The notes under the pieces are model-generated. The model searched no databases and was not told the origin of the DNA. It saw nothing but the letters and a program-made list of their open reading frames with translations. Shown one piece after another: positions 3,687-33,737 of a DNA stretch of 64,000 nucleotides. Position 1 is the first letter of the stretch, and every line of letters begins with the position of its first letter. Origin of the DNA: a bacterium (GTDB lineage: Bacteria; Patescibacteriota; Gracilibacteria; Absconditabacterales; Absconditicoccaceae); assembly GCA_020627925.1 (NCBI GenBank), contig JAHDFY010000003.1, positions 1 to 64,000 of the forward strand, written 5' to 3'. Position numbers and translations under genes: made by a program.

Positions 3687-3833
3687 GAAAAATGTATAAA
3701 TAAAATAATTTGTCAACAAAATACCTGCAAGAATTATTCTCAAAATTCATTTTTAAACAAAATTTGTCTATAGTATAGCATAATATGGATACTATGAGAT
3801 ATTCATAAATTCTATTCTTAGTCTTGTTTATTG

Positions 3834-6800
3834 ATGAATAAATTATTTGTTGGATTGCATATATTTTTTGTTATTGCATGTGTTTTTGCAATACATTTTG
3901 TCGTTGCTTACGAATCATATGATACCTATGAAGAGATCACTATTATAGAAGTAAATGATGTAGTTGAGATGCATAACTCATTCAGTACTAGTGGTTCAGA
4001 TTCAGCAGAAAAAGAAGTAAAAGAAGATCTCGAAGAAGAAACATATGAAGAGAATTTAGTACAAACTATTATCCAAGATATCGAAGAAAATACGTATGAA
4101 GATATGCAAGCAAACGAACAAGAAAGCATACAAGAAGAGCTAGTCCTACAAAAAGAATCTCCTAATGTAGTCGTAGCTTCTTGAGGTGCGTCAGTAAGTT
4201 TTTCTTCAGGTACTATTTTGCTTTCCGAAGAATGAGAACTTGTTTTATTTGATAATTTTACCCCTCCTCAGGAGCTTTCTTCTGATGATGTTGAAAAAAT
4301 TAACAAACAAATTGATGGAGTAGAGGTAAAACAAACATTTAAAATTGGAGGGAAGCAAAGAATCAACGTTCTCTCTGGTGCGAAAGAAGCAACAGCAACT
4401 ATTTCTTTACCCACAAAAGAGCGCTTCTTTAATAACAAAGCAATTATCTACTCATCGCAAACAACTGATGAATGGGAATATCACGCACATGTTGACGTAC
4501 AAAGTGGTGGCATTATTGCATTTGAAACAACGCACTTTACCTATTTTTTGCTTTGATCAGAATTGGGTACGATGCATATCAATAATGCGGACTCAGTAAC
4601 AACATGATACAATGTAATCTTGTCAAACAATGTAAGTGGTGCGACAATGATGAAATTTGCTAATGATTTTTTGGATCTAGATACTACCCCTTGGGAAACA
4701 TTTACACCGACAAAATCATGGTCTTTGACTGGTGATAATGGAGCAAAAAGAGTACACGCAATCTACCAAGACGCAAACGGCGTAACTGGTTACGTGTTCG
4801 ATGATATTTTGCTCAATGCTCCTAGCCAAGCAACGGGTATCTCATCAATGACGTGAATAGTAGCGTGGTTTGATGCAACAGACACGGCAACAATAATAAG
4901 AAATGCTTCCAATCAAGTAAGTCAATGGCTGGATAAATCAGGAGCATGAAATCACTTATTGCAGCCAGCTCAACCAAGTAGGCCAATTTATCTTGCAACA
5001 TGATTGAATAATCAATGAGCCGTATCTTTCGATGGAACTACATGGATTGCAGGAAATACAAGCTTCCCTAAACCATATACTATTGTGACAGCATCTCAAG
5101 CTGATCCTTCAAGTACTGCATGATGCTTAATTTGTTCGGTAGAGTCATTTTGGATTTTGGGATACTGGGCAACGATGGAAGATGTATTCTATGCTGCTTT
5201 TGGACGGGTTGCATCTCCTTGAGTACCACTCACCAGTACCACAAAAATTTATTCAGCAGCATGATATAATATTACTACAGAGTTTTACAAAAATGGATCA
5301 CTTCTTCAAATAGACACAGCAAACCGTGAAGCGTTAAGAACCTTGCAACTAGGAAGGGCAGCTACATCAGCAGGTTTTGCGAAAAGTGGAAAAGTATCAG
5401 AAATTCTTATTTTTGATCGCCAATTATCAACAGGAGAACTCAATGATGTACACTGTTATTTTGGTGATAAGTGGGGAGTACAGGTAACAAACACTTGTGA
5501 CACAAGTGTTGCTCCGGTATTATCGAATCCAGGAAATATTCCTCCAATAACAACAAATCCTTTTGTTTCATTTAGCTTTGATTCGACAAAAGAGTGAATT
5601 GTCTCTCTTTCATGAAATTGTACGTCAGGGAGTATTTTGCATAATGCAGTAGCAACAGGAACAAATCTAATTTCATTTGGTCCTTTACCAAATGGAATAT
5701 ATAACAATTGTACCATAACAGTAACAGACAACGTTGCACAACAAAGTAATGTACTCACTTTACCATCATTTACAATGGACACAACGTTGACGTGATCAGC
5801 AGTGACTCCGTTATCATTCTCGTGATTGCAACTTTGGTTGGATGCATCGGATACAGGAACCCTACAGGCATTGGGTAATAATAGAATAACACAATGGAAT
5901 GATAAATCATGAAAAGATAATCACGTTGTCGCGACAGCAGCAAGCAGACGTCCGTTGTTGCTTCCGTGATGACAAAACTGACTTGATACCGTTCAGTTTC
6001 AATGAGACGATTCCCTCAATACTACAGGATCAACTATTATTGGAGCAAATACCGATTTCACTAAATTTCTTGTGATGAAATTGGATAATAGTAATACAAC
6101 CAACTGTACTTTTTGAAATCTTGGTGGGCATACGATCTACTTTGGAAATACTGATAGAGCGAGAATGCACAACCAGGGGCAGGTGATGCAGTCAACCATT
6201 GGTATTGGTACGAGCCAATATGCGTTGATAGTTATGACCTACGACCCGAGTGTACAAAATTCGATTTATGTTAACGGGACCAATGCGGGAACGAATACGA
6301 CAAGTATTAATTATCATGATAATGGTCCTACGTATATATGATCATGGGGAAATTCATGTCCACTGCAAGGAAGGATTGCAGAAATTGGGGTGTATAATCA
6401 GGGATTGACTGATGCAGAGCGCCAAGACTTAGAATGTCATTTGGCAGATAAATGGAATTTACCCATAAGTTTACCTTGTGCAAGTAAGGTTCCGCCTGTT
6501 CTTTCAAATCCAAGTGCAATTGCTTCACCAATCACTACTGGAAATGCGTTCTTTTCTTTTGTGAGTGATTCACCAGGAATGATAGAAATGTATGGTTCTT
6601 GTGCATGACTTCTTGATGCCCCTGCGAATAGAATGGCTAGTAGTGGTGTAAACAATATTGCAATAGGGCCATTGCAAAATGGCATGTATAATGATTGTCG
6701 TGTGGCGGTAAGAACCTCAGCAAATGTGTTAAGTAATGTGTTATCTATGCCATGATTTAGTGTTGTTGATATTACTGGATCGGCACCTGTTGTATGGTCT

Positions 6801-7499
6801 GGAGCTCCATGAAATTTATTGATGCACGCAGAAGCTGCGAGTGCCTCATTTTTCACCGATGCGACATGATATATCCAAACATATGGCGATTGTGCAATTA
6901 GTTCCTTTGATCCACAAATCGCTGTAACATGACTAAATGTGATTAATTTTGCTTATTTAGAAACAGGAAATTATGATACTTGTCGCATTTCGGTGACGAC
7001 ACTTTCATGAGTAATATCCAACATCGAGCCTATTTCTTGATTTACTATAGTAGATACTGATTTACTCTTTATTGGTGCACCAACAAGTCTATACTTGCCA
7101 AGCGTTCAGCCCTTACCTGCAGTGCAGCATTTGACTCATCATATAGCAGATGATTTTTATGTATGTGATAACGCTGGTTTTGATCAGTGATGGTACACAA
7201 CAGTGCAAGTGTCAGCACTTTCATGAAACTATGCAACGCTTCCTTCGTCTACTGTATCGATGATGGCTACATGAGTGAGTCTTATGACATGACAGCATAA
7301 TGCCAATGTTGAACTAGATGCCTCTATGTCTTGATGGCAATCATTAGACGTACCAAGAGTGTTTATCAAAAGGGACACCTGAATCAACTATTCCAGAAAA
7401 TGATGCTATACTACCAACCCATCATTAAAAGTTGAAGTACCTACTTTTGCTATTGTAGATCAATATAGCGCAAGAATTACTTATACGTTGTATGAGTAA
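3834..7499 (+). CDS. Giant secreted adhesin-like protein with two LamG-like domains
   Basis: 1221 residues, dozens of UGA-glycines. An N-terminal signal segment (residues 4-25) is followed by an acidic linker rich in Glu/Asp (about 30-115). Two copies of a concanavalin/LamG-like module follow: one with IVAWFDATDT and QWLDKSGAGNH (around 345), one with LQLWLDASDT and QWNDKSGKDNH (around 665). Each ends in a similar pattern (IGVYNQGLTDAER; ILIFDRQLSTGEL). Repeated 90-residue beta modules with paired cysteines lie between and after them, each beginning PPVLSNP- or PVVWSGAP-like. The last 150 residues resemble a WxL-type surface domain ending ARITYTLYE. Probably a cell-surface attachment protein for host contact; the function is inferred from architecture. 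Confidence 0.7.
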
Positions 7500-13076: not shown

Positions 13077-14102
13077 TTAGTTAACTCTTAGTAGCTGAAT
13101 AAGATTTTCACACTTAATTCTTGCTTCATAGGTAATATTCATTGTTTGTAATGTTTGAGAGGCCTGATCTAGGTAACCGTTGGTCGTTTGGATTCCATAG
13201 TCAAATGCTCACAATACAGTAAACAAATGGGTTAAATCTTGCTTGTCTTGATCAGAGAGGAGCGTCCCCATTTTTTCACGTAAAAACTTTTTCTGTTCTT
13301 TGGTTCCATTGTCAAAGACGTATTGTGTAAGAACAGTCTGTTGACCTTCTTGTAAGTCATTAAAGACGCTTTTGTCTTGGTGTGGTTTGTACATATCAAG
13401 CAGATCATCTCTCATTTGGTAGCCAATACCTATTTCCTTTCCTAGTTTTTTGATTTTTTCTAGTTCTTGAGGATCAGTCAATCAGGCGAGAGCGGCACCT
13501 GCAAGAAACGGCCTTACAAAGGTATAACTTGCTGTTTTGTAATAGCTTTTGGTGGTTACTGCATCAATGCTTACAGGATTTCATAGCATAAAATCAACAT
13601 CAAGCATTTGCCCCCACACTACTTCTTGTACCATCTTATGAAAGTGTCCTCTTGCTGCAGAAAGTCGCTCTGATTTGATTCATTGAGGTTGTATTTCCAT
13701 TTGTTCATATGCTCGTGAAAAACAGATATCACCCACAAGAATTGCTTGTGAAGCGGCAATATGACTATTACCAATCTTTTGTTCATAATGCTTGTGACAG
13801 GTTGGTACACTACGCCTCATATCCGCATGGTCAATCCAGTCATCATGAATAAGAGCAAAAGTATGGAATAGTTCAAAAGCTATCAAAAAAGCAGAAATAT
13901 CAGACGTGATTCACGATCCGTATCATCAAAACGTCAGTGCTACGTTATAGGGTCTTACTCTCTTTCCTTTTTGGCTAATCTCTTTGATATAAGCAATATA
14001 GAAGTTTCTTTCTTTGAGTATGGGTTGGGTACGAGCAATTTGTTGGTCAAGGTAGGTATGAAATTTCTCGTCAAAATATGCTGCATATTCATGTAAGTGC
14101 AT
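13077..14102 (-). CDS. Polyprenyl (geranylgeranyl/farnesyl) diphosphate synthase
   Basis: 341 residues. First aspartate-rich motif LIHDDWIDHADMRRS (DDxxD plus the downstream arginines), second motif QMRDDLLDMY (DDxxD), and GKRVRPYNV near the N-terminus as in trans-isoprenyl synthases. Several UGA-glycines. Adds IPP units to an allylic diphosphate. Together with the downstream synthase it would supply C40 or C30 isoprenoids for carotenoid or sterol-like membrane lipids. No IPP-making pathway is in the window, so precursors may be imported. First gene of the operon. Confidence 0.9.
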
Positions 14103-14316
14103 TCAATGGGGTAGTGAATAAATTTATTACCATACTAGTATTTAGTAATCTAATTGCAATTCCAGTAGTAATTATTGTTGTATTACGTGGCTGCTTATTG
14201 TGGGTATTGTGATTTAGTAGTTGTATCTCTTGTGTTTTTTTTATGTATTAATATAATTATGCTTATATAAAAAAATATGTCAATTGTGTGTTGTGTAACA
14301 AAAAAGTAGTCTTTTT

Positions 14317-14345
14317 TTGCAAAAGAAGAGGACTATCGGTACAAT
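14317..14345 (+). promoter_or_regulatory. Promoter of the J-domain/flotillin cluster
   Basis: -35 TTGCAA (14317-14322), 17-bp spacer, -10 TACAAT (14340-14345), 38 bases before the start at 14383. The remaining 14103-14316 region holds only AT-rich sequence. Confidence 0.5.
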
Positions 14346-14382
14346 TGGCATAGATACTTTAGTGTGTGTAGTAAGAAAAATT

Positions 14383-17300
14383 ATGGGGAAAAAATTACAA
14401 AATAGGGATAAATGAAAAGATATCTTGAACGAAATTGTAACGTCAGTTGCTAATCATTCTAAAATTTCCAAAGAAACTCAAGAGAATCTTTTTAATGTTA
14501 TGGCAATGACTGATTATAATGGTGAAAATAGGGATGAATTTTTTACTTTTATAGAAGATGCTATTCTTCAGGTCTCTATGAAGGAATGAGGTAATTCTGA
14601 AAAGGAAAGACAAAAGTGGAATGAGGTGAATGAATTACTAAAAAAATTTATTAAAGAGAAAGAAAATGAGTGGAGTGAACTTCCTAAAGACTTTTTGGAA
14701 AGGAATGAAACAAAAAAAATTGAAACAATAGCTATCCCAACTTCACCCACCCTAGTATGAACCCCTGCCTCGTATGTCCCCAATTATGGTAATGATGGAG
14801 AAATCCAAAATAACACATGAAAAAAGTCACTTCGCTATATAGTAGAAAAGGCACTTAGTGATACAGAAGTCCAATTATTAAGGGCTTTTGAAGATGATTT
14901 TACTAATGGACAAATCGTAGAAAAAGAAAATATTCAACTATACACAAAGCTAATGGCACTATTGGGTATTAAACCTGATCCTGGTACCGGTTATTTCCCT
15001 GTACTTACTGAAAATCAGTTGCAACAATTACTAACTGATGCTGATGACTTACCTGGAAGAATAAGGGAATGTTTCAAAGCTGATGTTTTCCCATTTGTAA
15101 AAAAAATGAATGGAACAATTTTTCTTCTTGAAAACTCGTCGGATAGCGCTAAGGGAGGAGAGCTAACAACAGAGGAAAAAACTGAAGAAAAGACGGAAAA
15201 TAAGCCCGTAATCCAAGATGCTGAAACACCACAAATTGAAGAAGAAAAGAAAGAAGAAAGCGACAAAACTGAAGAAGATATAGAAGAGGGTGTAGAAGAA
15301 AACACTAACAAAAAAGAGAATAGAGGATTGGTTGTACCTCCAGAAGCTCAGTTGGTTGATCCGAGCAATAACCGTCAAGAGTTACAGACAAAAAAAGAAG
15401 AAGTAGAAGAAAAAACAGAAAATGAAGTAGAGAATAATGTAGAGAACGAATTGGAAAATGAAGAAGAAGAAATTATTGCACCTCAAGCATTACAACAATG
15501 AGCTAGCAATACATCAACGGAGCTAGTACCACAAACAACGACTGATCTAGTTCCTGAAACAGCGCCAGGGCAATTAGTTGCGCCAGCAACTGCAAGAGAA
15601 CTCGTTCCAGTAGAAGAAGTAAACGAGGATATAACGCCTGAAGTAACGCCAAAAATTGCTGGGCTTTTGGATGCGCCAGTTGATACTGTTCAAAAGCAAG
15701 TAAAAATCACGCAAGATGATATACTAAGCGCTTTTGAGGCTAATTTTGTAAACACAAAAGAATTTCATCAGCAAGCTGCTAAAAAATTTGCTACAGAAGG
15801 TTACGGTCCTGACGGAAAACCTATTACTGACCCAATGGGAAGAAAATCATATAATGATAAATCTTTTTGGAATCAAGTAGGATTGATTGGACAATACTTT
15901 ATGGATGCTTCCAAAAAAAGAAAATTCATGAATGAATACATGAAAAAAGCACAAAACATATATAATCTAGATAAATCAACACAGTCAGAATTAGCAAAAA
16001 GAGCTGCCTATGCGGCAAGATTTTCTACATCTGGAATTGCTTGAGCATCAAATTATCAAAAGTTAGATACATTTCAAATTGATGAGATTAATACAATTGC
16101 TGAAGAGTTTAGACAAAATAGAAACCAAGATACGGCAGTCCGTAAGATCAACAAGTTAATGAAAACAGCAACAGGAGATCGTATCCGTCAAAAATACCTT
16201 GATGCAGGAATGAGCAAGTTGTCTTGGATATGGAGGGGAATGAGCAAAGAAGATGTACAATATCTTGCATCGAATTTGGTGGAACAAATCAAAGCACAAG
16301 CAGATACGGCAACCAAAACTATTAACTTTATAAAAAATGTAAAAAGTTCTTCGAACCTTTCACAATTGCAAACACATGTAGATAATTTTTATGTTGCAAA
16401 TGGTTCTTATCCTTCTTTTATTTTCAAATTTTGTGCTAATCCAAAAAATATACAAGAAAGTGAATTTTCACTTATCAAGTCTAATGCTGTATTGCAAGGA
16501 ATGAACGACGATAATATGAAAATGAGATTAAAAATTAATGCCTACTATCAAAAAGAAGGTGCACAAATTGGTTCGGCAGAATTAGATAAATCTCATCAAA
16601 ATGTATGGTACAGATTAGGAAAAAAATTGGATGACATGCCTTGGGGAGCAAGAATAGCGACAAGAGGATGAATCACTATAGGAGCTACAACACTTGCGGC
16701 AATGTCGAGCGCACCTCTTGCAGTAGCGGGAGCAGGAGCATGAGTTGCTATGTTTTTGCAAGCACTCAAAACTAATTACGAATCAAAAGAAGAATGATTA
16801 GAAAATGTAAGAATGCACTTAGAAGACCGTGATAAACTCAATAGAATCAAAGAAGATTTAGAAAAAAAACTCAAGGCAACAACCTGGTTTGGAAGAAACA
16901 TGTGGTTTGGAAAAGCAGATAGATGGTCAAAACAACTAAGACTGATCAATGGAGTCGTGAATCTGTCGACAGACGCAGACGGGGATCCTTATGTTTTCCC
17001 TATTGAAAAAAGACTTGCAGATCTTAGTGCGCCTACAACAGACGCTAATCAATGAACTCAAAGAGCTCTTATCATAGATACATTGGCTCGTATGGATGTT
17101 GCAGGAGAAACCAACAGAAGTGCGTTCTCTGCGCAGAATGGACATAAAGTAGCAAAAAATGAAGCTCTCTTGTCAGTATTACAAGAAAAAGCGCTTACCT
17201 TGTTTCCGCCAACATGACCATTGCCTTCTGATCAACAATCATGGGTAAATTATTGGGACAAGCATGTAAGAGGGCAAGACGAATATAAAGATAGTACCAA

Positions 17301-19356
17301 TGCCTATACAAAGGCACACGATGCTATTGTAAAATCAACAACGAAAGCGGCTGGGGCGAATGTTCTCAAAGACCTTTACAAAAAGGGACTTGTGATGACG
17401 GCTCTAGGTGTAACAACATTCTATGCAACCGACGCTCTTGCAGATTGAGCAATAGATGGAATTGACGCAAGTCATCTCAAAGCACCAGAAACTTTTGTAG
17501 AACCAGGATTAGAAAATCAATGGAATTTGGGAGATCATACCAGTTCGCAATTGGTGCAAAAAGATTTCACTACAACATGGGATAGTGTGTTAAACACAAG
17601 AGTGAATGATATCACGAATGGATCACAAATAGATTTCACGTTTGGAGCGTGAGTTGATGGTGTTCCTGCTTCTCTTACCAAATACTCTGATGCATTGGTT
17701 GAGGCAAAACAACAAGCACTTACCAACTACGTCAAAACAAACTGTAGTCCAGAAACCTATGATAATTTCCTCAAAGCATTTGATGATAATGGTATCAATG
17801 ATTTGAAACAATTCGTTGTAGGTAAAGGTGTAACTGATGGTAACACTAATCTTTTTGCTATGAGGGCAATGGAAGGTACTGAAAAAATGCTAATGGAATT
17901 GCAAGAAGCAGGAAAATTAAAAGACGTTTCGATTAACTTTACGTTTGATCAATCTGTTTCAGCTGCAGGAGGTCCTGCTTATGTGCAAGGAGATAGAATG
18001 TTTACCTGATCAGTGGATGTACATCAACGAGTAGAAGAGACAACAAGTGATGGTGAAGCAATAAATAATGGATGAATTCCTATCCTTGTTTCAGGTCTTC
18101 ACAATACAAAGGGAGCGGTTGATCCAAAGCTAGCGGCAGCTTCAGAGCAAAAGACTGATGCAAAAAAAACAGCCAAAGAGGACGATGCGCCTATAGATGC
18201 AGATGGCAAAAGAACAACAGAAACAACGCTACAGACCGAAGCAAAAGATGGAGGAGCGAAAAAGGATTCACAACCAATATCGCCATTACTTTTGGGAACA
18301 TGAGGAGAAAAACGTCAAGGAAAGGGTACAGTAGATACACCAAGCACAAACTCAGAGCAGAAAGATATAAATAACAAAGATCTATCTAATAAAGACTATA
18401 ATCCAAAGAACAATAAAGAAGATAACAAAGAAGAGGATACAGAAAAAAAATGAGATAAAGATAAGCCAAAAAATGAGGACAAAAACAAGAAAACAACACC
18501 AGACAACCAGGAAGAAAAAACAAATAAGATAACCATGACTCCTGAGGAGCTTGATTCTTTCTATGAAGAAACAAACGACGAGTACAACAGATTAATGTCT
18601 TTGGAAATGAAATATCAAGCATTGCATCTCCAAAAAGCAGCTGCGATAAAAAGCAACAATGACACCGCTCCTAAAGAGATCGTAATTGATAATAAGTCAG
18701 TCAAACGAGGTGACTTCTTAAAGTTGTTATCTGTATTAGAAAAGCAAATAGATTGAGTTACAAAAAAGATCAGCCAAAAAATGGAAGACATCAGCCAAAA
18801 ATGAATCTCGTTATCATCAAGGTTTGATAAATTTAGTTACAACCAATCGCAAAGAAAAGTAGTAAGAAGTATAAACAATTATTTTGTGCAAATTTTTGGT
18901 GCTAAGAATATAAAAGGAGAACTTCACCAAAATTCAACGACAAAAAGTACACTGAAAAAAATGATTAAAAAGGTGGATAAGCTATTCAAAAATGCACAGA
19001 AAAATAAGGTAACAATAGAAGTATCATGGGAAGAAGCTTATGATAATTTGAAGAGCTTAACAGTGAATGTACCTCTTTTTTACGAAAAAAATGAGGCATG
19101 TAAAGAACTGCAAGAGTACAATGACGAAATCAAAGATAAACTAAATAAGGATGTGTTTGCTAGGTGGAAAAATAACGAAATGACCGAAAGTGATGCAAAA
19201 AAAGTCATGAAAGTGATGAAGAAAAAGCTTCTTGTAAAATATCATCCCGATAAATTTGAAAACGCAACTCCTCAAAAGAAGCAACAAGCAGAAAAAACCT
19301 TTAAAAAAATAAATAACCACATAGACAATATCAAAAAATATTACAAAATAAAATAA
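14383..19356 (+). CDS. Giant membrane-associated protein with C-terminal J-domain
   Basis: 1657 residues as one open frame across many UGA-glycines. The N-terminal third is highly charged, with Glu/Lys-rich low complexity (about 260-370) followed by short Ala/Pro/Val/Leu repeats such as ELVPVEEVNE. Residues about 763-791 are hydrophobic (a likely membrane hairpin rich in Ala/Gly), and 1003-1022 form a second hydrophobic segment. Around 1265-1400 is another charged linker (DNKEEDTEKKGDKDKPK). The last 55 residues look like a J-domain: KKKLLVKYHPDKF (HPD at 1621-1623) then helix III with EKTFKKINNHID. J-domains stimulate Hsp70, so it may recruit DnaK to the membrane. The rest is unrecognised. 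Confidence 0.75.
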
Positions 19357-19372
19357 TCGATTTTTATATCTT

Positions 19373-19696
19373 ATGTCACTAGCAAAAATGGATTTACAAA
19401 AAGCACTTCTCGCTGTAGCAGAAACAATTGTTCCTTATGATAGAGAAGCACAACAAACCTTGATAAATCAAATAGAACCTGTTCTTTTTGACAGGCTCAT
19501 GTTGACTATGAAGTCAACATTAACAGAACAACAAAACGCGACATTAGACCAATTTGCCCAAAATGACACAATAACAGCAGACGCTGTCTATGATCATTTG
19601 GCTACATTAATACCGAATATTGATGAACTTATCCATAAAACAACACAAGACTTTCTCAATGAATATCTCACAGCAATGGGTATTGAATCAACATAA
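19373..19696 (+). CDS. Small conserved-looking helical protein of unknown function
   Basis: 107 residues with no UGA codon, starting 16 bases after the J-domain gene and therefore co-transcribed. Predominantly helical and acidic, with VLFDRLMLTMKSTLTEQQ and a C-terminal TTQDFLNEYLTAMG. No signal peptide, cysteine cluster or catalytic motif. I recall similar short proteins in CPR genomes but cannot name the family. It may be a cytoplasmic partner of its neighbours. Confidence 0.65.
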   Translation: MSLAKMDLQKALLAVAETIVPYDREAQQTLINQIEPVLFDRLMLTMKSTLTEQQNATLDQFAQNDTITADAVYDHLATLIPNIDELIHKTTQDFLNEYLTAMGIEST

Positions 19697-19740
19697 GACT
19701 GAGATTGACATTTCAAAAAGAAATCGTATAAGGTAACTAG

Positions 19741-21213
19741 ATGAATTTTTATTCTCTAGTTTCTTTTTTGTTTATGGGAGGATTTGTATTTCTTTTGATT
19801 ATTGCGCTCATTGCTATTATTTTGGTTTTGGCGTACCTAAGAATTGTAGTAAAAACAAATGACGTACATATTGTGCAAAGTAGCGGAAAATCAGCAGCAT
19901 TTGGAAAGTGATTTAATGGAGGAAATGTCTACTATAATTGGCCATCATGGCTCCCTGCTCTCTGAGTAAGTGTTACCAAACTTCCTTTGAGTGTTTTTAA
20001 TTTAAAATTAGAAGACTATCAAGGTTATGATAACGGAAAAGTTCCTTTTGTCGTTGACGTGACAGCCTTCTTTGTTATCAACGATCCCATTCAGGCAGCA
20101 GAAAAAATTTCTAACTTCAAAGAATTAGAAGAACAACTAGTTGAAGTACTGAGAGGTGCTGTGAGAAAAATCCTTTCACAAAATGATATCATTAGTATCA
20201 TGGAATCAAGAAGCGAAATGGGGCAATCGTTTTATGAAGAAGTAGTACAACAAGTAAAAGAACGATGAATACAGCTCAAAAATATTGAATTTATGGATAT
20301 TACTGATGCGGATGGTTCAGAGGTTATCTTCAATATCATGCAAAAGAAAAAGGCTAGTATCGAGTCAGAATCAAGAGTGCAAGTAGCAGAACAAATGAAG
20401 CTTGCAAAAATTGCAGAAGATAACGCGCAAAAAGAAGCACAAGTAAATAGTATCAAAAATAGAGAAGCAGAACAAGCAAGACAAATTGAGTCGGACAAAT
20501 TATTGGAATCAAAAAGAATTGAGATGAATAGAGAAACAACACTGCAAAATGAACAAGCACAAAAAGAAATTCTTGATGCACAAAAACTTACAACAGAAAA
20601 AGAAATGGCAGTAAAACTTGTTGAAGAAGAAAAACAAGCAGAAATCCAAAAAGTAAAAGAACTTATCAAAGCTCAAGAGGACAAAGAAAAATCAGTGCTA
20701 CAATCAGAAGCTCGCAAAGAGTCAATGATTTTGGAAGCAGATGGGCAAAGACAAGCAATGGTGCTTAATGCAGAAGGAAAAGAAAGAGACGCCTCTGCTG
20801 ATGCGATGAGAATTGCCTCTATTGGTAAAGCTGAAGCAGAAAGTAAGTCAGAAATCGCAAAGTCACTCAATACCTTTGACGAGGCATCACTACAATATCT
20901 TGTAAAGGAATTAGAAGTAAGATTATCAGAAAAAGTAGACACAGAAAAAGCAAAAGCTCTTCACAAAGCAGATATCAAAATCATTACGACAGGTGGTAAC
21001 GAAAATGCAGGACTAGAAAAATTTATGGATCTTTTTTCTGCTCAATGAGGTGCTAATATTGGTTTGATGATGGATACCCTTAGAGATACTGTTGGGCAAG
21101 AAAAATACAGCGAGTTTCTACAAAAAGTACAAAAAGTCGTTGCGCTTCCTCAATCATCACAAAAAAAAGCCGTACCCAAACAAACGATAAAAAAAACATC
21201 CAAGAGTAAATAA
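19741..21213 (+). CDS. Flotillin-like SPFH-domain membrane scaffold protein
   Basis: 490 residues. An N-terminal membrane anchor (about 6-36) is followed by an SPFH domain (about 45-190, VPFVVDVTAFFVINDPIQAA and EVLRGAVRKILSQNDI), then a long Ala/Glu/Gln/Lys coiled coil (about 195-400) and a Lys-rich tail. UGA-glycines occur in the SPFH part and near the C-terminus, none in the coiled coil. Flotillins oligomerise on the inner membrane face and organise lipid microdomains. No NfeD partner gene is adjacent. It lies 44 bases after the small protein gene, in the same operon as the giant J-domain protein. Confidence 0.88.
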
Positions 21214-21262
21214 TCGTGACGTGAAAGTAGCCTTAGAAATTTTTTAACCATATTACAACATT

Positions 21263-22000
21263 ATGGACCATTTAATCACAATATATAAATTTTCTCACCC
21301 TCTTCAGGATTTGACACATGAGGCCAAACACGCGGAAACAACCATTAATCTTGTAAAAAATTATTTCATCTACGAGCAAGCAAACGACGAAGAAAAAACT
21401 TATACAGAAGAACAAAAACAATCAGAATGATTTCTTACATATACATTTACCAATAACGTTGAGCAATTCGCTATTAGCGTCTTGCAATCAAATGACTACA
21501 ATCAATGGTCATGACTTCCTATATACCGTATGGAAATAAGAACAAAACGTATCAAGTGATTAGCGGATTTTCTTGCTCGTACGGTAAAAGAATTTTTTGC
21601 GGGTATCCAAGCAAATGGGTATAGTTATGATAGTGATTTTGCTATGCCTCATGATTGGGGATTGTATGATCTTTCATCAGTTAAGGAGATGTTTGATGAA
21701 GAAGGTCACGAACATATGCAAGAATTTCTTGATAAGAAAGCAAAACATGAAGACTGGTCAGATTCTTCTTTTCCTCACTACAAACATGTTTGGGGATATA
21801 TGCACTATCTTTCATTTGTATATCGAAATCTCCATCAAAGTAATTCATGGACTGAGGAGATTCTCCCTGATCTGACAAGAAGCACGAACCCACATATCCT
21901 TGCTGCATCACAAAGATTGCAATACAATGAAAACTCAATTAAGCAAATGATCAAGAGATACGGACAAGTATTCGAAGAATTTGTAGAAAAAGTAAGATAA
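21263..22000 (+). CDS. Hypothetical protein of the flotillin operon
   Basis: 245 residues, starting 49 bases after the flotillin gene and ending before a terminator. Soluble, with His/Trp/Tyr-rich stretches (DFAMPHDWGLYDLSS, FPHYKHVWGYMHYLS). Three UGA-glycines. No signal peptide or membrane segment, and I recognise no family. Many conserved-looking aromatic residues suggest a folded enzyme or binding domain. Position alone links it to the membrane cluster. Confidence 0.7.
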
Positions 22001-22013
22001 TGTTATTGTAGAA

Positions 22014-22040
22014 TATCCTCCTATTATGGGAGGTTTTTTT
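22014..22040 (+). terminator. Terminator of the J-domain/flotillin operon
   Basis: CCTCC-TATTATG-GGAGG followed by seven T. Confidence 0.8.
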
Positions 22041-22122
22041 GTTATAAAACCTTTGAAAAAAGAGAGGGTACAAGTATATATATATCAAACAAGCGGATTT
22101 ATTTTTGCATATATACAAGCAA

Positions 22123-23391
22123 ATGGCAACAGTAACAACAAAAGTAGGGCGATGAACGAGGCTAAAAAATAGCATTCAATGAGTTTTTGCAGGATTTTTT
22201 TTTATCATAGTCGGTGTTGGGCTTCTTTGGTGGAATGAATGAAGAACAATCAAACAAAGAACATCACTTAATGAGTTATGAAGAAACGTCATAAGCGTCA
22301 CAGGTTTTTCGAGTGACAATGACGGAAAACCCATTCATTATACCCAAATGGCAACAGCAAGTGGTGCGCTGCATTACAAAGAATTGAATATTTCAGAAGA
22401 GGATGCTCTCAAGTTTGTAGTAGATTTTGAAGTATTTCAACGAATTGAAGAGTCTCATACTAGAACAAAGGATAATGTAGGAGGCTCACAAACACAAACA
22501 ACAGAATACTCTTATAAGCAAGAGTGGATCGCAGAAGAAATCGATTCTTCCATGTTTGAATGACCAGACGGAGGAGAATATGGTAATAGTTATGTAAGTA
22601 TAGCTAACCTTGGTCTTACCCCACAAAAAAATGCTGATAATATTACTGTCGGAGAATATCAGCTTGCATCAATTTTTGTTGAAAGAATCAATGAATATGA
22701 GTCGTACACCCCAACAGAAGATATATTACAAACAATAAAAGCGCTAGCGGCAGATGCGTTACCTGAATATCAATATATTACTCAAAGAGGAAATGAGATA
22801 TATCTTGCTCAATGAGAAGGAACTACAGGAAGTATTGGAGATATGAGAATAACATTCAAGATTATTAGAGATCAACAAGTAAGTATCATTGGAAAACAAG
22901 AGGGGCAAACAATCACAGCATACAGAACATCCAATGGAATAGAAAATTCTATGTTGTCACAACAAGTCCTTTCTGCGGAAGAAATGATAGTACAAGCAAA
23001 AGAAGCAAATGAAATGATGAAATGGGTTCTAAGATTTTTATGAGTCTTATCATTATTTATTGGATTTTCATCTCTTTTGCGTCCATTAGTTGTCATTGCT
23101 GATATTATTCCATTGATAGGAAGTATAGTTGGCATAGGAGTTGGTTTTGTAAGTGGAGTAGCGACTCTTCTGATTGCATCAATAACAATTGCGTTGGCTT
23201 GGATAAGATTCAGTCCATTGATTGGGGGGGCGGTTCTTATTACCTGACTTCTTGTAAGTGGAGCAATAATGAAGCGAAGAAAAAAAAGAGTAGCAAACAA
23301 GAACCAAAAAAACAATGAAAAGAGCGAGAATAATACGTTCAAACAAGACGAAAAAGAAACACCGCCCAAGAAATTGCTTGGAGCAGAATAA
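22123..23391 (+). CDS. TMEM43-like membrane protein
   Basis: 422 residues. Pattern of the TMEM43/LUMA family: an N-terminal membrane segment followed by LLWWNEGRTIKQRTSLNE, a large central domain (about 60-300) with GDMRITFKIIRDQQVSIIG, and three or four membrane helices at the C-terminus (about 305-385) before a Lys/Asn-rich tail. About ten UGA-glycines. The family role in bacteria is not established; animal TMEM43 sits in the inner nuclear membrane and ER. Following a flotillin gene it may be part of a membrane-domain apparatus. It sits after a terminator and has its own leader. Confidence 0.8.
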
Positions 23392-23407
23392 AAAAGAACA
23401 ACATAAC

Positions 23408-23437
23408 AAAAAACAGCCTCTCTCAAGGCTGTTTTTC
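23408..23437 (+). terminator. Terminator after the TMEM43-like gene
   Basis: AAACAGCC-(TCTCTCAA)-GGCTGTTT plus T run. Confidence 0.8.
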
Positions 23438-23447
23438 TTTGTCAAAA

Positions 23448-24794
23448 TTATTCTAAAAACTGATCTAAGTCTCTTGAAAAGTCTATTTTTTTGAGGTATT
23501 CTCATTGCATTGTACGGTTTTTGATAGTAAGGAAGTAGACAAGGTGATCACTTCCGTTAAGATGGGTTGTTGGTGCGGTCACTCTAGTATTTTCAGGCAT
23601 TTTTATCGAATCGACTATCTTGTTTGTTTGCGTATCATATTTTACTACCGCATCATACTCACGTGCTACTCCGTTTACTTGTTCAATAGTCCAATATGCT
23701 ACAATATAATATCTTCCATCTTGAGTAAATCACAATGCTTTAGTTGCCGGTGTTCTTGATGGCGCAATCGTAACATATGATCCCAATTCTCCTTTGTTAT
23801 TTATTGGATAGTATCAACCATCAAATGATCCGTTATTGTGTCCATGAACATACATTTTTCCTTCAAATTCTATTGAAGTATAGAATTGACCAATAGTAAC
23901 ATTCTTTCTTGTTGTCATTGTATTTCCATTCATAACATAACCACGCAATTGGGACGAGCTTCCGGGTGCAACTATATAAAGAATATCATTAAATCCAATA
24001 AGTTTGCTTTTTCCTGAAACTTTATCATGATTTTGTTGCTTTTCATCTTCGACAACACCAATAGAGCTAAAATTGCTAAGATTGATAGCATGAAGCTGAT
24101 TTGATTCACTCACGTGAGTTGGTGAAACATAGAGTGTTTTTCCTATGGCAGCAATCGAATGAGGTTGAAAATCAAGCGTTAGAGATGTGATTCTATGATG
24201 ACGCAAATCATACTTATCGATACTGTTTGTAAGGAGATTTGCAGCATAAATTATTTCATTTTTGTAATCAAAGTAGGTGCTGTTTGAGATGATTTTCCAG
24301 TCATGTTTTTTTCCAAGAGACCAATTACTGGTAGAAACCTCATAAAGACCCTGTTCCGTTGCCGTTGCTGCAACAGCAAATGCTTTATCTTTTTTCTCAT
24401 CATAGTACACCCATAAGATTCCCTTATTTTCCATCAAACGCTTTGTCGGTGTAATGTCGTTGTTTGGTGTTGAAGAGATTTTTCATTGGCTTAATACCTT
24501 ACTTTTTACTGTGGGTAGTGCCTTAATAAGCAAATTTATTACATTAATAACTTTTTCTTTTTTTGCTTTTTCATCATGAGATGATGCGGCATTTTTTTGT
24601 GCTTCAAATTTTTTCTTGATAAGAAGCAATGCCTTCTCAAGTTTGGTGATAAATGCATTTCTTTCTGCAGCAGGTTTTTTTGTAATGATTTTTTCTAATG
24701 TTGCATCGATGCTTCCAGCATTAACACTTGGCTGTCCAATAGCAAAAAACGCAACAACAAAACAAAAACAAATAAATCAAAAAAGACGTTTCAT
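23448..24794 (-). CDS. Secreted beta-propeller-like protein of unknown function
   Basis: 448 residues with a signal peptide (MKRLFGFICFCFVVAFFAIG). A helical Lys-rich segment (about 28-95) leads into repeated beta units with patterns such as GILWVYYDEKKDKAF, FDYKNEIIYAANLL, ALGFTQDGRYYIVAYW and LVYFLTIKNRTMQ, spaced about 45 residues apart, as in WD40/NHL-type propellers. Three UGA-glycines. No catalytic motif seen. Probably exported and involved in binding. The upstream region carries a TGTAAT...ATTACA inverted repeat. Confidence 0.6.
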
Positions 24795-30815: not shown

Positions 30816-33737
30816 ATGAAAACAAAAAAAATCTTACTTTCGTTTTTCTGTCTTGTTGTGTGTCTAGCAAATCTGATGGGACAATATTCCTACAGGACAG
30901 ATTTGTCAATTATTACTCCTGATACTATTGGGGATGGCGCTTACCATGGTATCGGTCTTATGCCACAAGTGGTTGCATTCTCTCATGTAGAAGGTGATTC
31001 TCTTGTCTTCTCTGTTGCAAATAGAGACGATATCTCAAACACAATTGTGACAGGTTATAAACCATTTACTAATGGCATTTGCGCTGAGTTACTCAACTCA
31101 AGTGGAGTTGTGATTAGTGAACGAGTATGTATTGCATCGGGCGATGCTCATGCTACATTAAAGATGCATAAAAGCAATGTCTCTGATTCGATGCAAATAC
31201 AACTGAATGCATATGATTCTTTGTATGCATTTTGGTTTGTAGATCCTACCATGACACTTTATGCTGAATCTTCTGTAGAGAAGCTTATGACGCCCACTCC
31301 TGCTGCATACTTGAATGGAACGACCTTGAATGTTGAAGGAAACTTTGATATTCGCTCTAACTCTATTCAATTGGCCATATTGCAAGAGCCAAGCAGCCCA
31401 GTTCCTCTTCATGTGTGGAATGGAGTAACGGGGTTTCGAAAACCAAACCTTTTGGTGACGGTTGATGATTCTCTGGATCTCAATCGAATTACTTACACGG
31501 ATGAAGATTGGGTAAGTGTTCGTTCTTTGAGTAATAGCGGTCTTGTTCAGTCAAATTGGTCTTATCCTGTTCGACTGAGCCGATTACCTAGCTATCCGCT
31601 CAAGCAAGCAATTATTGCAACCAATACAGTCAAGGAAGATTCTTTCTCAATTTCTATAGAAATTGATGGCAGAATTACACCTACGACAGGAAATATTCGT
31701 ATTGTTGTTGCCCCCGATGATGGGACAGCGATTACTTTGACTGATTCTGTTGCTCCTTTTGTGACACAATCAGAGGTATTTAATCGGCTGATACCAGTAA
31801 ACACTCTTGTCGATGATTCGACAGGACTGTATCATATTGGTCCATTAGATACTGCGACCAACTATGTTGTGACGGCAACCTATGGAGATCCTTATGTTCT
31901 CAATGGCGCTCATCCAATGTTTTGTAACTCTCACGCAGTTGCAACAACAGGTACGGCTCTACATCAAATGTTAGAACCTGAACAGTGTGACGTAGTGGTG
32001 ACGGATACGGTATGGTTTCGCTTTGAGGGTAATCAATATCCGACGATCACCTTGCAAATAGATAGCATGGATACGGTAGGAAATTGGGTATCGCTCTCCA
32101 ATCAAACTTATGTACCAACAAGTAGCGAATGGAAACAAGTCGATGGAGATATCTACATTGCAATATTACTCCCTGCAGCAAATACTTATCGATGCAGTGT
32201 TGATGGGGGAGTTAGCTATACGGTATTTTCTTACCAATCTGTTAACTCTAATAGTTCGTGCCAATCATTTGTGATTCGACACGATATAGCAAGCAAATCG
32301 CTCGCTTACCAACATGAAACAGTGATATTTTATGCACAAGTACTAGGAGACAGTAGCGGAATACAGAACATGAAACTTGAAATAAACAACAATTCTCAAA
32401 CGTATGCGCCACAAGAATATCAAGCACTTTCTCTTGGTGGTGGAGCATTTATGGGATTTGCCATTCTTGGTGATACAGGAATATACCAAGCAAGGTTTTT
32501 TGATTCAACGACAAACATATCATCACAATCACAAATGGTGGTGATAGTAGAAGACCCTTGTATTGGTGGACAACAACCAATTGATTTTGCAACACCAATC
32601 GCGCATATAGGGACTTGTTTTGCCAATGCAACAGGATGGGTACAACACCCTTCTAATGACCAAATGGTGGGGATTGATTCACTTGCTCAGTCGTGGATTT
32701 TTACAGGAATGGAATGTGATTCAACAATAATTGCGCCATGTGATCTTCGTGTGATCCAAGTCAGACAAGGATGTCCTACGCGTTGCGATACTTCAGGTAT
32801 TGATCTTCATTGCAACGAGTTCGGTAATTACATTCTTGCTCAGTCTGTTGAATCTGGATGGTTTGTTCGTATTTCTCATCTCAACACTATTTTGGTAGCA
32901 GAGGGAGACAAAATTCGAAGAGGACAATCATTAGCACTTGCTGGTTTTACCGGTGAATCTGACGGAACCATGATATCATTGTATCAAATGCCTAATGATT
33001 TATGGGATCCTTCTATGCAAGACAGTGCATCTTACAGTAAAAATTTTGTTATGGATGCTACATGTCCAAGTGTTACGACAAAGTTAGCTATGCAAGATGC
33101 CTTGTTGGCAAATGTTCAGAATGGTTATTTACATGCGGTAGCATCATTTACCAATACGAATACTCAGTTGTTTGAAGGAACTGTACAATTGGTTATGTAT
33201 CGAGACAACCAGGTGGTAAAAAGTGCAAATACATCACCAACGATTATCTCTTCTACGTATCAACAAATTGCTCCAGGTGGTATCGTCGATATGGAAGAGG
33301 AGTTGTCTAATGTTTCGTTGCTCAGCAATCATACGGTAGCATTGCGCTACAAATCATGGAATCAAGATCACTGGAACTTAGTTGTTCCAAGACAGATACA
33401 CAATGGAGTGGAAGATATTCAATTGCATAACCCATTTCGTATTGACCTCTCTTCATCACTCGTTCTGCACACCCCAAAAGGAACAGAGAAAGGAACGGAG
33501 TTGACACCAATGACGCATGTGTATCCAAATCCAACCAATGGCGTTCTGTTTATTGATCTTGCTCATAATACCAACATACTTGCTACGGCCCTCTATGATA
33601 TTCATGGGCGACAAGTAGTGAGGCAGAATAATTCATTACAAAAAATACATCTGAACGAGCTTCCTGTAGGGGTGTATGTACTTCGTTTGGAGCTTGATAA
33701 TGGATGTTTTAGCATCCACAAAGTAGTAAAACAATAA
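30816..33737 (+). CDS. Large secreted protein with type IX secretion C-terminal domain and degenerate M23-like domain
   Basis: 973 residues. Signal peptide (MKTKKILLSFFCLVVCLANL). Repeated beta-sandwich modules fill about 30-560. A cysteine-rich segment (about 590-680) leads into an M23/LytM-like fold (GNYILAQSVESGWFVRISHL, KIRRGQSLALAG) that lacks the usual HxH zinc ligands. The last 80 residues match a type IX secretion (Por) sorting domain: VYPNPTNGVLFIDL, LYDIHGRQVVR, LPVGVYVLRLE, ending VVKQ. By my count it has about 60 glycines, none encoded by UGA, and mostly CGN arginine codons where neighbours prefer AGA. It looks imported from a Bacteroidota-like genome. No type IX machinery is in the window. 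Confidence 0.85.
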   Translation: MKTKKILLSFFCLVVCLANLMGQYSYRTDLSIITPDTIGDGAYHGIGLMPQVVAFSHVEGDSLVFSVANRDDISNTIVTGYKPFTNGICAELLNSSGVVISERVCIASGDAHATLKMHKSNVSDSMQIQLNAYDSLYAFWFVDPTMTLYAESSVEKLMTPTPAAYLNGTTLNVEGNFDIRSNSIQLAILQEPSSPVPLHVWNGVTGFRKPNLLVTVDDSLDLNRITYTDEDWVSVRSLSNSGLVQSNWSYPVRLSRLPSYPLKQAIIATNTVKEDSFSISIEIDGRITPTTGNIRIVVAPDDGTAITLTDSVAPFVTQSEVFNRLIPVNTLVDDSTGLYHIGPLDTATNYVVTATYGDPYVLNGAHPMFCNSHAVATTGTALHQMLEPEQCDVVVTDTVWFRFEGNQYPTITLQIDSMDTVGNWVSLSNQTYVPTSSEWKQVDGDIYIAILLPAANTYRCSVDGGVSYTVFSYQSVNSNSSCQSFVIRHDIASKSLAYQHETVIFYAQVLGDSSGIQNMKLEINNNSQTYAPQEYQALSLGGGAFMGFAILGDTGIYQARFFDSTTNISSQSQMVVIVEDPCIGGQQPIDFATPIAHIGTCFANATGWVQHPSNDQMVGIDSLAQSWIFTGMECDSTIIAPCDLRVIQVRQGCPTRCDTSGIDLHCNEFGNYILAQSVESGWFVRISHLNTILVAEGDKIRRGQSLALAGFTGESDGTMISLYQMPNDLWDPSMQDSASYSKNFVMDATCPSVTTKLAMQDALLANVQNGYLHAVASFTNTNTQLFEGTVQLVMYRDNQVVKSANTSPTIISSTYQQIAPGGIVDMEEELSNVSLLSNHTVALRYKSWNQDHWNLVVPRQIHNGVEDIQLHNPFRIDLSSSLVLHTPKGTEKGTELTPMTHVYPNPTNGVLFIDLAHNTNILATALYDIHGRQVVRQNNSLQKIHLNELPVGVYVLRLELDNGCFSIHKVVKQ

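Follow-up and report, generated by a model that had tools for sequence, protein, structure and literature searches.

What joins the genes at positions 14,383 to 23,391 of the window, the first 64,000 nucleotides of contig JAHDFY010000003.1 (assembly GCA_020627925.1), from a bacterium placed in the family Absconditicoccaceae? They encode a giant protein (P0001), a small protein (P0002), a flotillin-like protein (P0003), a protein of 245 amino acids (aa) (P0004) and a TMEM43-family protein (P0005). The initial annotation had read them as one membrane-attached chaperone scaffold. Our results showed that the conserved unit in relatives is the giant gene together with a gene of about 100 aa, rather than the five-gene cluster. 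That the giant is a lineage-specific, wall-anchored membrane scaffold with a species-specific tail outside the cell, and the small protein its partner, is our favoured reading, which we hold at about even odds.

The giant and the small gene form the conserved unit

The first search for relatives covered 59 genomes, namely the window's own and 58 relatives. The flotillin matched 8 of them, TMEM43 8, the small protein 11 and the 245-aa protein 1. The whole-length giant was rejected as a query, since it missed every relative (1/59, itself); relatives surfaced through the small protein and then through profiles. As a query by itself, P0002 hit its 11 genomes and, at E<0.01, 14 small proteins among the loci fetched. 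Fetching of wider stretches covered the ten non-window small-protein matches, six of the seven other flotillin matches and one weak match to a segment of the giant.

Large genes with a common core were located near the small protein in 9 of 10 relatives; the exception, L039, is a contig of 3.65 kb that begins with the small gene. The core is about 710 aa long, and a profile made from ten relatives without P0001 matched P0001 residues 480–1191 at 111 bits. Core alignment A2 matched 27 of 242 genomes of the class, 24 of which belong to the window's family (window included). When all open reading frames were scanned, with a profile built from those same small proteins, the small gene was found downstream on the same strand in 23 of the 24 family loci. 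It was directly adjacent to the core gene (gap ≤69 bases) in 17 and behind at least one gene in 6; in the 24th locus (L079) the contig ends 1.8 kb further on. For the three core matches outside the family, the small gene was not found in the fetched stretches. Identity of the core and small proteins to those of the window falls to roughly 13–27%, although the genes remain linked.

The other three genes did not share this linkage. In 26 stretches fetched around other cores (3.8–19.9 kb), tblastn gave no match to the flotillin, the 245-aa protein, TMEM43 or two flanking genes, and the idea of five genes as one conserved system had to be given up. Gene order is kept for the giant/small pair but not for the full cluster within the family sampled; as the 49 family genomes include no other member of the window's genus, these comparisons are across genera. 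Five draft assemblies (G003, G013, G020, G031, G032) hold both TMEM43 and the core, each time on separate contigs. The flotillin, the 245-aa protein and TMEM43 look like local neighbours of the pair, outside any shared system. No description of the pair was found in the open-licence literature, judged by title and the start of the abstract.

Elsewhere in the window's genome lies another core protein, 849 aa long and strongly diverged (contig C9, L158:8682-11231), with no small gene within 19.9 kb around it. The gene beside it is patatin-like by eye.

A probable OmpA-like domain in the giant protein

The part of P0001 from residue 480 to 1657 was modelled with AlphaFold. Residues ~1040–1189 were predicted as an alpha/beta domain, with mean predicted local distance difference test (pLDDT) values of 64–92 in ten-residue blocks. 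The highest Foldseek probabilities against the PDB were those of OprF (5u1h, 0.92, E 0.17) and Acinetobacter baumannii OmpA (3td3, 0.91, E 0.27; 3td5, 0.87, E 0.41), and the type VI secretion system (T6SS) wall anchor 4b62 (0.60) and MotB (0.30) were matched as well. VIA-align returned the peptidoglycan-binding domain of SiiA (Z 6.7, root-mean-square deviation 3.2, 96 residues aligned, model 557–737).

In an alignment of this domain (A7, 18 sequences), the sole invariant columns are D, L and R, in the motifs GxGTD and NxxLxxxR. D63 and R132 of A7, a candidate diaminopimelate-binding pair, are invariant in 18/18. The excerpt of PMC12108004 names Asp271 and Arg286 as the residues of A. baumannii OmpA that bind diaminopimelate. 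We infer from the modelled fold and the motif that residues ~1040–1195 form an OmpA-like peptidoglycan-binding domain, which is predicted to bind the cell wall.

Predicted membrane topology

No signal-peptide-like segment was seen in the first 80 residues of P0001 (best 17-residue hydropathy 0.55), and the membrane placement was judged from the charges around its two hydrophobic stretches. Around stretch 2, Lys and Arg were more numerous on the N-side than on the C-side in 26 of 26 core sequences (means 5.7 vs 1.5). Around stretch 1 the N-side was higher in 13 of 26, with no consistent bias. Controls comparable in hydropathy, 93 segments taken from the loci's other proteins, split 39 vs 39, with 15 ties. 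Under the positive-inside rule, the N-side charge of stretch 2 would place the OmpA-like domain and all that follows it outside, so the domain, the linker and the tail are predicted to be extracytoplasmic. The four L,D-transpeptidase-type neighbours of the core in relatives have no hydrophobic segment at the extreme N-terminus; their most hydrophobic segment precedes the enzyme domain, an order that fits the same topology plan as the giant.

Several points weigh against this picture of a wall-bound giant. The AlphaFold model is poor overall (mean pLDDT 54.1, predicted template modelling score 0.30), although the alpha/beta domain and a helix-HPD-helix arrangement were predicted in it. Both hydrophobic segments named by the initial annotation are present, but the second is weak (mean hydropathy 1.23) and modelled at a pLDDT of about 35–38. 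The 26 core sequences share kinship, and 26/26 does not amount to 26 independent observations. The Foldseek E-values are weak (best 0.17), and a VIA Z below 8 can reflect a common arrangement. Of the 26 rows of alignment A3, A7 leaves out 8 that are divergent or truncated, and most of these lack the motif. At E≤5 the 18 members together hit 14 Pfam families, and PF00691 was not one of them; a PDB profile search did not detect the OmpA-like domain, and hhalign against E. coli OmpA, Pal and MotB gave a probability of 0.7%. With no support from these sequence searches, the assignment rests on fold and motif. In addition, the core profile search did not find the core in at least 20 family genomes, which indicates that it is not essential to the lineage.

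Differing tails and neighbouring wall enzymes in relatives

One core carries differing tails, protease-like in some relatives and J-like only in the window. An HExxH...NExxT module is fused to the core in L034, L037, L082, L083 and L087, is separate in L036, and is absent from P0001. Its HExxH and NExxT residues are invariant in seven sequences; because a profile of the module found no metallopeptidase among PDB sequences, the term protease-like rests on these residues. Genes for wall enzymes also stand beside the core. An L,D-transpeptidase (YkuD) was recognised in L030, L078 and L080, and in L031 just below the cut-off (23.1 vs 23.4); L080 has a VanY gene as well. The L033 protein clusters with the transpeptidase-type proteins by BLAST, yet has no YkuD match in Pfam. 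In the remaining core loci no tail or neighbour module was recognised. Several pair loci of relatives also hold a protein of ~270–340 aa without a clear family.

Such tails on one conserved core, with the small gene so often directly behind it (17/24), would also suit a delivered effector or contact toxin, whose C-terminus would be an exchangeable weapon (protease-like or J-like) and whose small protein would be a chaperone or immunity protein. Vampirococcus, of the window's inferred group, is described as a predator in the excerpt of PMC8080830. We nevertheless regard an effector as unlikely. A single small-protein family goes with protease-like, J-like or unrecognised tails, which fits immunity badly, though its members are only 13–26% identical to P0002. 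Each genome has a single core locus (the window's diverged second copy aside), without any array of cassettes, and the core has the look of a wall-bound rather than a released protein.

Another family of giants ('giant A', as distinct from the 'giant B' of P0001) was detected in 20 of the 49 family genomes and keeps company with the pair in several relatives; by profile search it is absent from the window's genome. Its members are ~900–1150 aa long and end in a conserved NPFLMGRLIR-like motif (L036, L047, L084, L088 and other family loci). A second small gene of ~95 aa lies alongside in several of these loci, and no Pfam match was found among the giant A proteins scanned. A common N-terminal docking stretch in giant A, giant B and the wall-enzyme proteins seemed plausible by eye and was rejected after a shuffle test. 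Among 17 giant B N-termini only that of L031 was clearly positive (0/200 shuffles as high; the next 3/200), and P0001, with 15/200 shuffles as high, was not positive.

The J-like tail of P0001

A profile of E. coli DnaJ, CbpA and DjlA and the genome's own DnaJ scored the last 101 residues of P0001 at 19.6 bits, a score reached by 0/2000 shuffles and by 0/164 natural C-termini from these loci. Six of the seven weak NCBIfam matches to the tail are J-domain families (ActJ at 5.8e-4, far below its cut-off). Among PDB sequences at E≤10, 13 of 15 are J-domain proteins, with SEC63 the best (0.013); SEC63, HCG3 and KIAA0730 are counted here on our assumption that they are J-domain proteins. The HPD motif (1621–1623) lies between predicted helices (model 1123–1141 and 1151–1177, block pLDDT 51–69). 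Most J-family matches span only helix II, HPD and helix III, and the canonical first helix was not evident.

Full-length P0001 matched no Pfam family at E≤1, DnaJ (PF00226) included, and the one PF00226 match in the window's genome lies at another place. No J-domain protein is named among the 50 VIA matches listed, which are dominated by the long helices of the tail; this silence carries little weight, as the alignment covers chiefly the helix preceding the J-like stretch. Of the C-terminal HPD J-domain that the initial annotation had described, the motif is present and the profile score beats 2000 of 2000 shuffles, but the DnaJ match in Pfam is missing; by its sequence, the tail is J-like. 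Of the 49 family genomes, only that of the window was found to have such a tail, and an HPDK/HPDR motif was marked in no other core protein.

These J-domain matches are what a cytoplasm-facing chaperone scaffold would call for, in which the tail would recruit DnaK at the membrane and the flotillin would form a microdomain. A gap of 44 bases parts the flotillin gene from the small gene before it, and no terminator-like stem was seen on the plus strand in that gap. A precedent for such a scaffold may be seen in TopJ, presumably a J-domain protein. It maps to the attachment organelle of Mycoplasma pneumoniae, in the internal bowl complex, according to the excerpt of PMC4923136. What stands of this proposal is a membrane-attached giant with a J-like C-terminus, linked to a small gene; but in the chain the tail comes after the OmpA-like domain and after a segment whose N-side carries the inside charge, and a tail lying outside, as predicted, could not serve the cell's own cytoplasmic DnaK. 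With the J-like tail confined to one of 49 family genomes and the flotillin unmatched in the sequence fetched around the 26 other cores, we hold a chaperone scaffold to be quite improbable. It would be a long shot that the giant presents or delivers the J-domain outside an epibiotic cell, aimed at the Hsp70 of the touched host, the tails being host-directed tools on a conserved, DUF5663-partnered anchor across Patescibacteria. A phage-derived tape-measure-like protein with its tail chaperone, which the size, long helices, hydrophobic stretches and enzyme-like C-termini might recall, is hardly credible, as no phage structural protein was matched in PHROG (the giant had one match at 0.053, of unknown function, the small protein none, and the relative L037 had, in its repeat-rich part, a match of unknown function (4.3e-6), besides one to a replication-initiation family (0.015)), a close-relative scan of viral contigs gave no relative, and no neighbour scanned in Pfam was a phage gene above cut-off.

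The small protein and DUF5663

P0002 was modelled as five helices with a mean pLDDT of 85.5, and a fold search with it gave nothing convincing (48 matches, best E 1.2). Seven of the 14 members of the small-protein family matched DUF5663 (PF18908), with a best value of 1.2e-7, but P0002 itself did not. DUF5663 was found in 55 of 239 sampled genomes of the phylum and in 0 of 14 control genomes, and no mention of it was met in the open-licence literature searched.

In 20 hand-picked regions, DUF5663 lay within two genes of a gene of at least 700 aa in nine, and near a gene of IF-2 size in nine. The latter suggest a second, translation-linked context for the family. In these loci (L124-L130, L132, L133, from other Patescibacteria) the gene near DUF5663 encodes 584–593 aa; in L125, the sole one scanned, Pfam gave IF-2, with S1 behind.

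With filters off, the core profile gave weak matches to the DUF5663-linked giants, the best being L135 (1.5e-11) and L136 (1.8e-6) in a small set, and the large protein of L136 has the same HExxH module (E 2e-38). A filtered search of the phylum with the core matched 3 of 286, window itself included, and the OmpA-like profile found nothing convincing in the giants of the DUF5663 regions. A Patescibacteria-wide giant family is only suggested by these data.

Layout of the locus and the neighbouring genes

With TGA read as Gly (table 25) all five frames are open, and with table 11 the region is broken into fragments; the frame of P0001 alone holds 19 TGA codons. The analysis drew its placement of the window in Absconditabacteria/Gracilibacteria solely from these open TGA=Gly frames. 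Provided that table 25 is used, the frames, coordinates and gaps (16, 44 and 49 bases) of the initial annotation were reproduced, and a further 122 bases precede TMEM43 (Table 1). Its single terminator was recovered as a terminator-like stem with a T run. Its single promoter found no support: 26 promoter-like sites were counted in 13900-23600, vs 33.0 expected from shuffles, and the best plus-strand site just upstream of the giant has 9/12 matches. The flotillin and TMEM43-like identities were upheld by Pfam, with Band_7 (PF01145) at 2.1e-16 for P0003 and PF07787 at 195.4 bits (cut-off 23.3; 1.4e-57) for P0005. The giant, the small protein and the 245-aa protein matched no Pfam family above its cut-off.

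Table 1. Features of the locus, in positions of the window
Feature	Positions	Strand	Basis
Giant protein P0001, 1657 aa, 'giant B' core family	14383..19356	+	table 25 frame, core profile
N-terminal ~479 residues, partly Glu-rich, preceding the core shared with relatives	14383..15819	+	
Conserved core, residues ~480-1191	15820..17955	+	relatives' profile, 111 bits
Hydrophobic stretch 1, residues 777-795, Gly/Ala-rich, possible membrane hairpin	16711..16767	+	
Hydrophobic stretch 2, residues 1002-1020, low confidence in the model	17386..17442	+	
Predicted OmpA-like domain, about residues 1040-1195	17500..17967	+	fold and invariant D, L, R
Low-complexity linker, predicted disordered (most ten-residue blocks pLDDT <40)	17968..18534	+	
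Helical tail ending in the J-like stretch	18535..19353	+	AlphaFold model; of 49 family genomes, seen only in the window's
J-like domain, about residues 1590-1655, HPD 1621-1623	19150..19347	+	
Small protein P0002, 107 aa, diverged DUF5663-like, conserved neighbour	19373..19696	+	family searches, model
Flotillin-like SPFH protein P0003, 490 aa	19741..21213	+	Pfam Band_7
P0004, 245 aa, without family match	21263..22000	+	Pfam, relatives search
Terminator-like stem, then T run	22017..22033	+	stem search
TMEM43-family protein P0005, 422 aa, 3' of the terminator	22123..23391	+	Pfam

Among the genomes examined, the flotillin adjoins the core only in the window's. As an anchor for synteny it was rejected, with no giant or small protein found by BLAST in six regions from the seven other matching genomes; the one region left out is that of the weak match G054. 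The three other family genomes with a strong flotillin match (G009, G010, G019) showed no core in the core search. The flotillin's named relatives, by pattern scan (L013-L016), are from Alphaproteobacteria at 37–39% identity, and it is patchy in the window's family, where the best other match is 48% (G019); this distribution would fit gene transfer. P0004 had no relative in the 58 other genomes searched, and P0005 was unlinked to the core in the loci examined.

Two further genes of the window were noted. A 973-aa protein (30816-33737, +) carries Por_Secre_tail (5.7e-11), a C-terminal sorting domain of secretion systems, and matches M23 peptidase below the cut-off. Tails of this kind are typical of type IX secretion in Bacteroidota. 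Its gene uses TGA for 0 of 62 Gly codons, and 12 other window genes checked do use TGA; judged on domain and codons, it looks recently acquired, possibly from a host. A 1222-aa protein (3831-7499, +) combines a hydrophobic segment at its N-terminus with a lectin-like Laminin_G_3 domain (4.1e-11) and is a candidate surface protein.

Proposed model and comparison with known systems

In the wall-anchored scaffold that we propose, the first ~1000 residues of the giant would be mostly cytoplasmic, with one Gly-rich membrane hairpin. The second membrane segment would take the chain outward, the OmpA-like domain would then grip peptidoglycan, and the flexible linker would present the species-specific tail outside, protease-like in some relatives and J-like here. 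The small DUF5663-like protein would be a dedicated helical partner, probably cytoplasmic, which perhaps folds, clusters or places the giant. In some relatives, wall enzymes may make room for it. That the giant serves host-cell contact is a guess, drawn solely from the lifestyle of a probable relative as described in the excerpt of PMC8080830. For the question of how Patescibacteria hold and exploit their hosts, the pair offers a concrete, testable candidate for a surface apparatus. The pair also gives a context to DUF5663, and moves attention from the non-conserved flotillin to the conserved genes.

The closest comparison is with MotB and the T6SS anchor, wall anchors of the PF00691 type. Like them, the giant has a predicted membrane segment followed by an OmpA-like fold, predicted to be outside, with D and R. 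It differs in its very large N-terminal part, in the tail modules after the domain, in an insertion of ~50 residues between the D and R motifs and in having no PF00691 sequence match. P0002 resembles DUF5663 through the half of its family that matches, and differs in being unmatched itself and in that the family also occurs near genes of IF-2 size. P0003 shares the Band_7 domain with SPFH/flotillin proteins, but it is below the NCBIfam FloT cut-off (49.7 vs 700 bits), and NfeD is not among the Pfam matches of the cluster's proteins. TopJ, too, comes from a reduced bacterium, where it belongs to an organelle of host contact (PMC4923136, excerpt), a likeness of description; it lies in an internal complex, in contrast to the J-like tail of P0001, which is predicted to be outside. 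Vampirococcus lugosii (Absconditabacteria), probably a related bacterium, also has very long membrane proteins and a flotillin; by the descriptions in the excerpt of PMC8080830, its giants carry WD40, PKD, DUF11, integrin and other domains that are absent from P0001 in Pfam.

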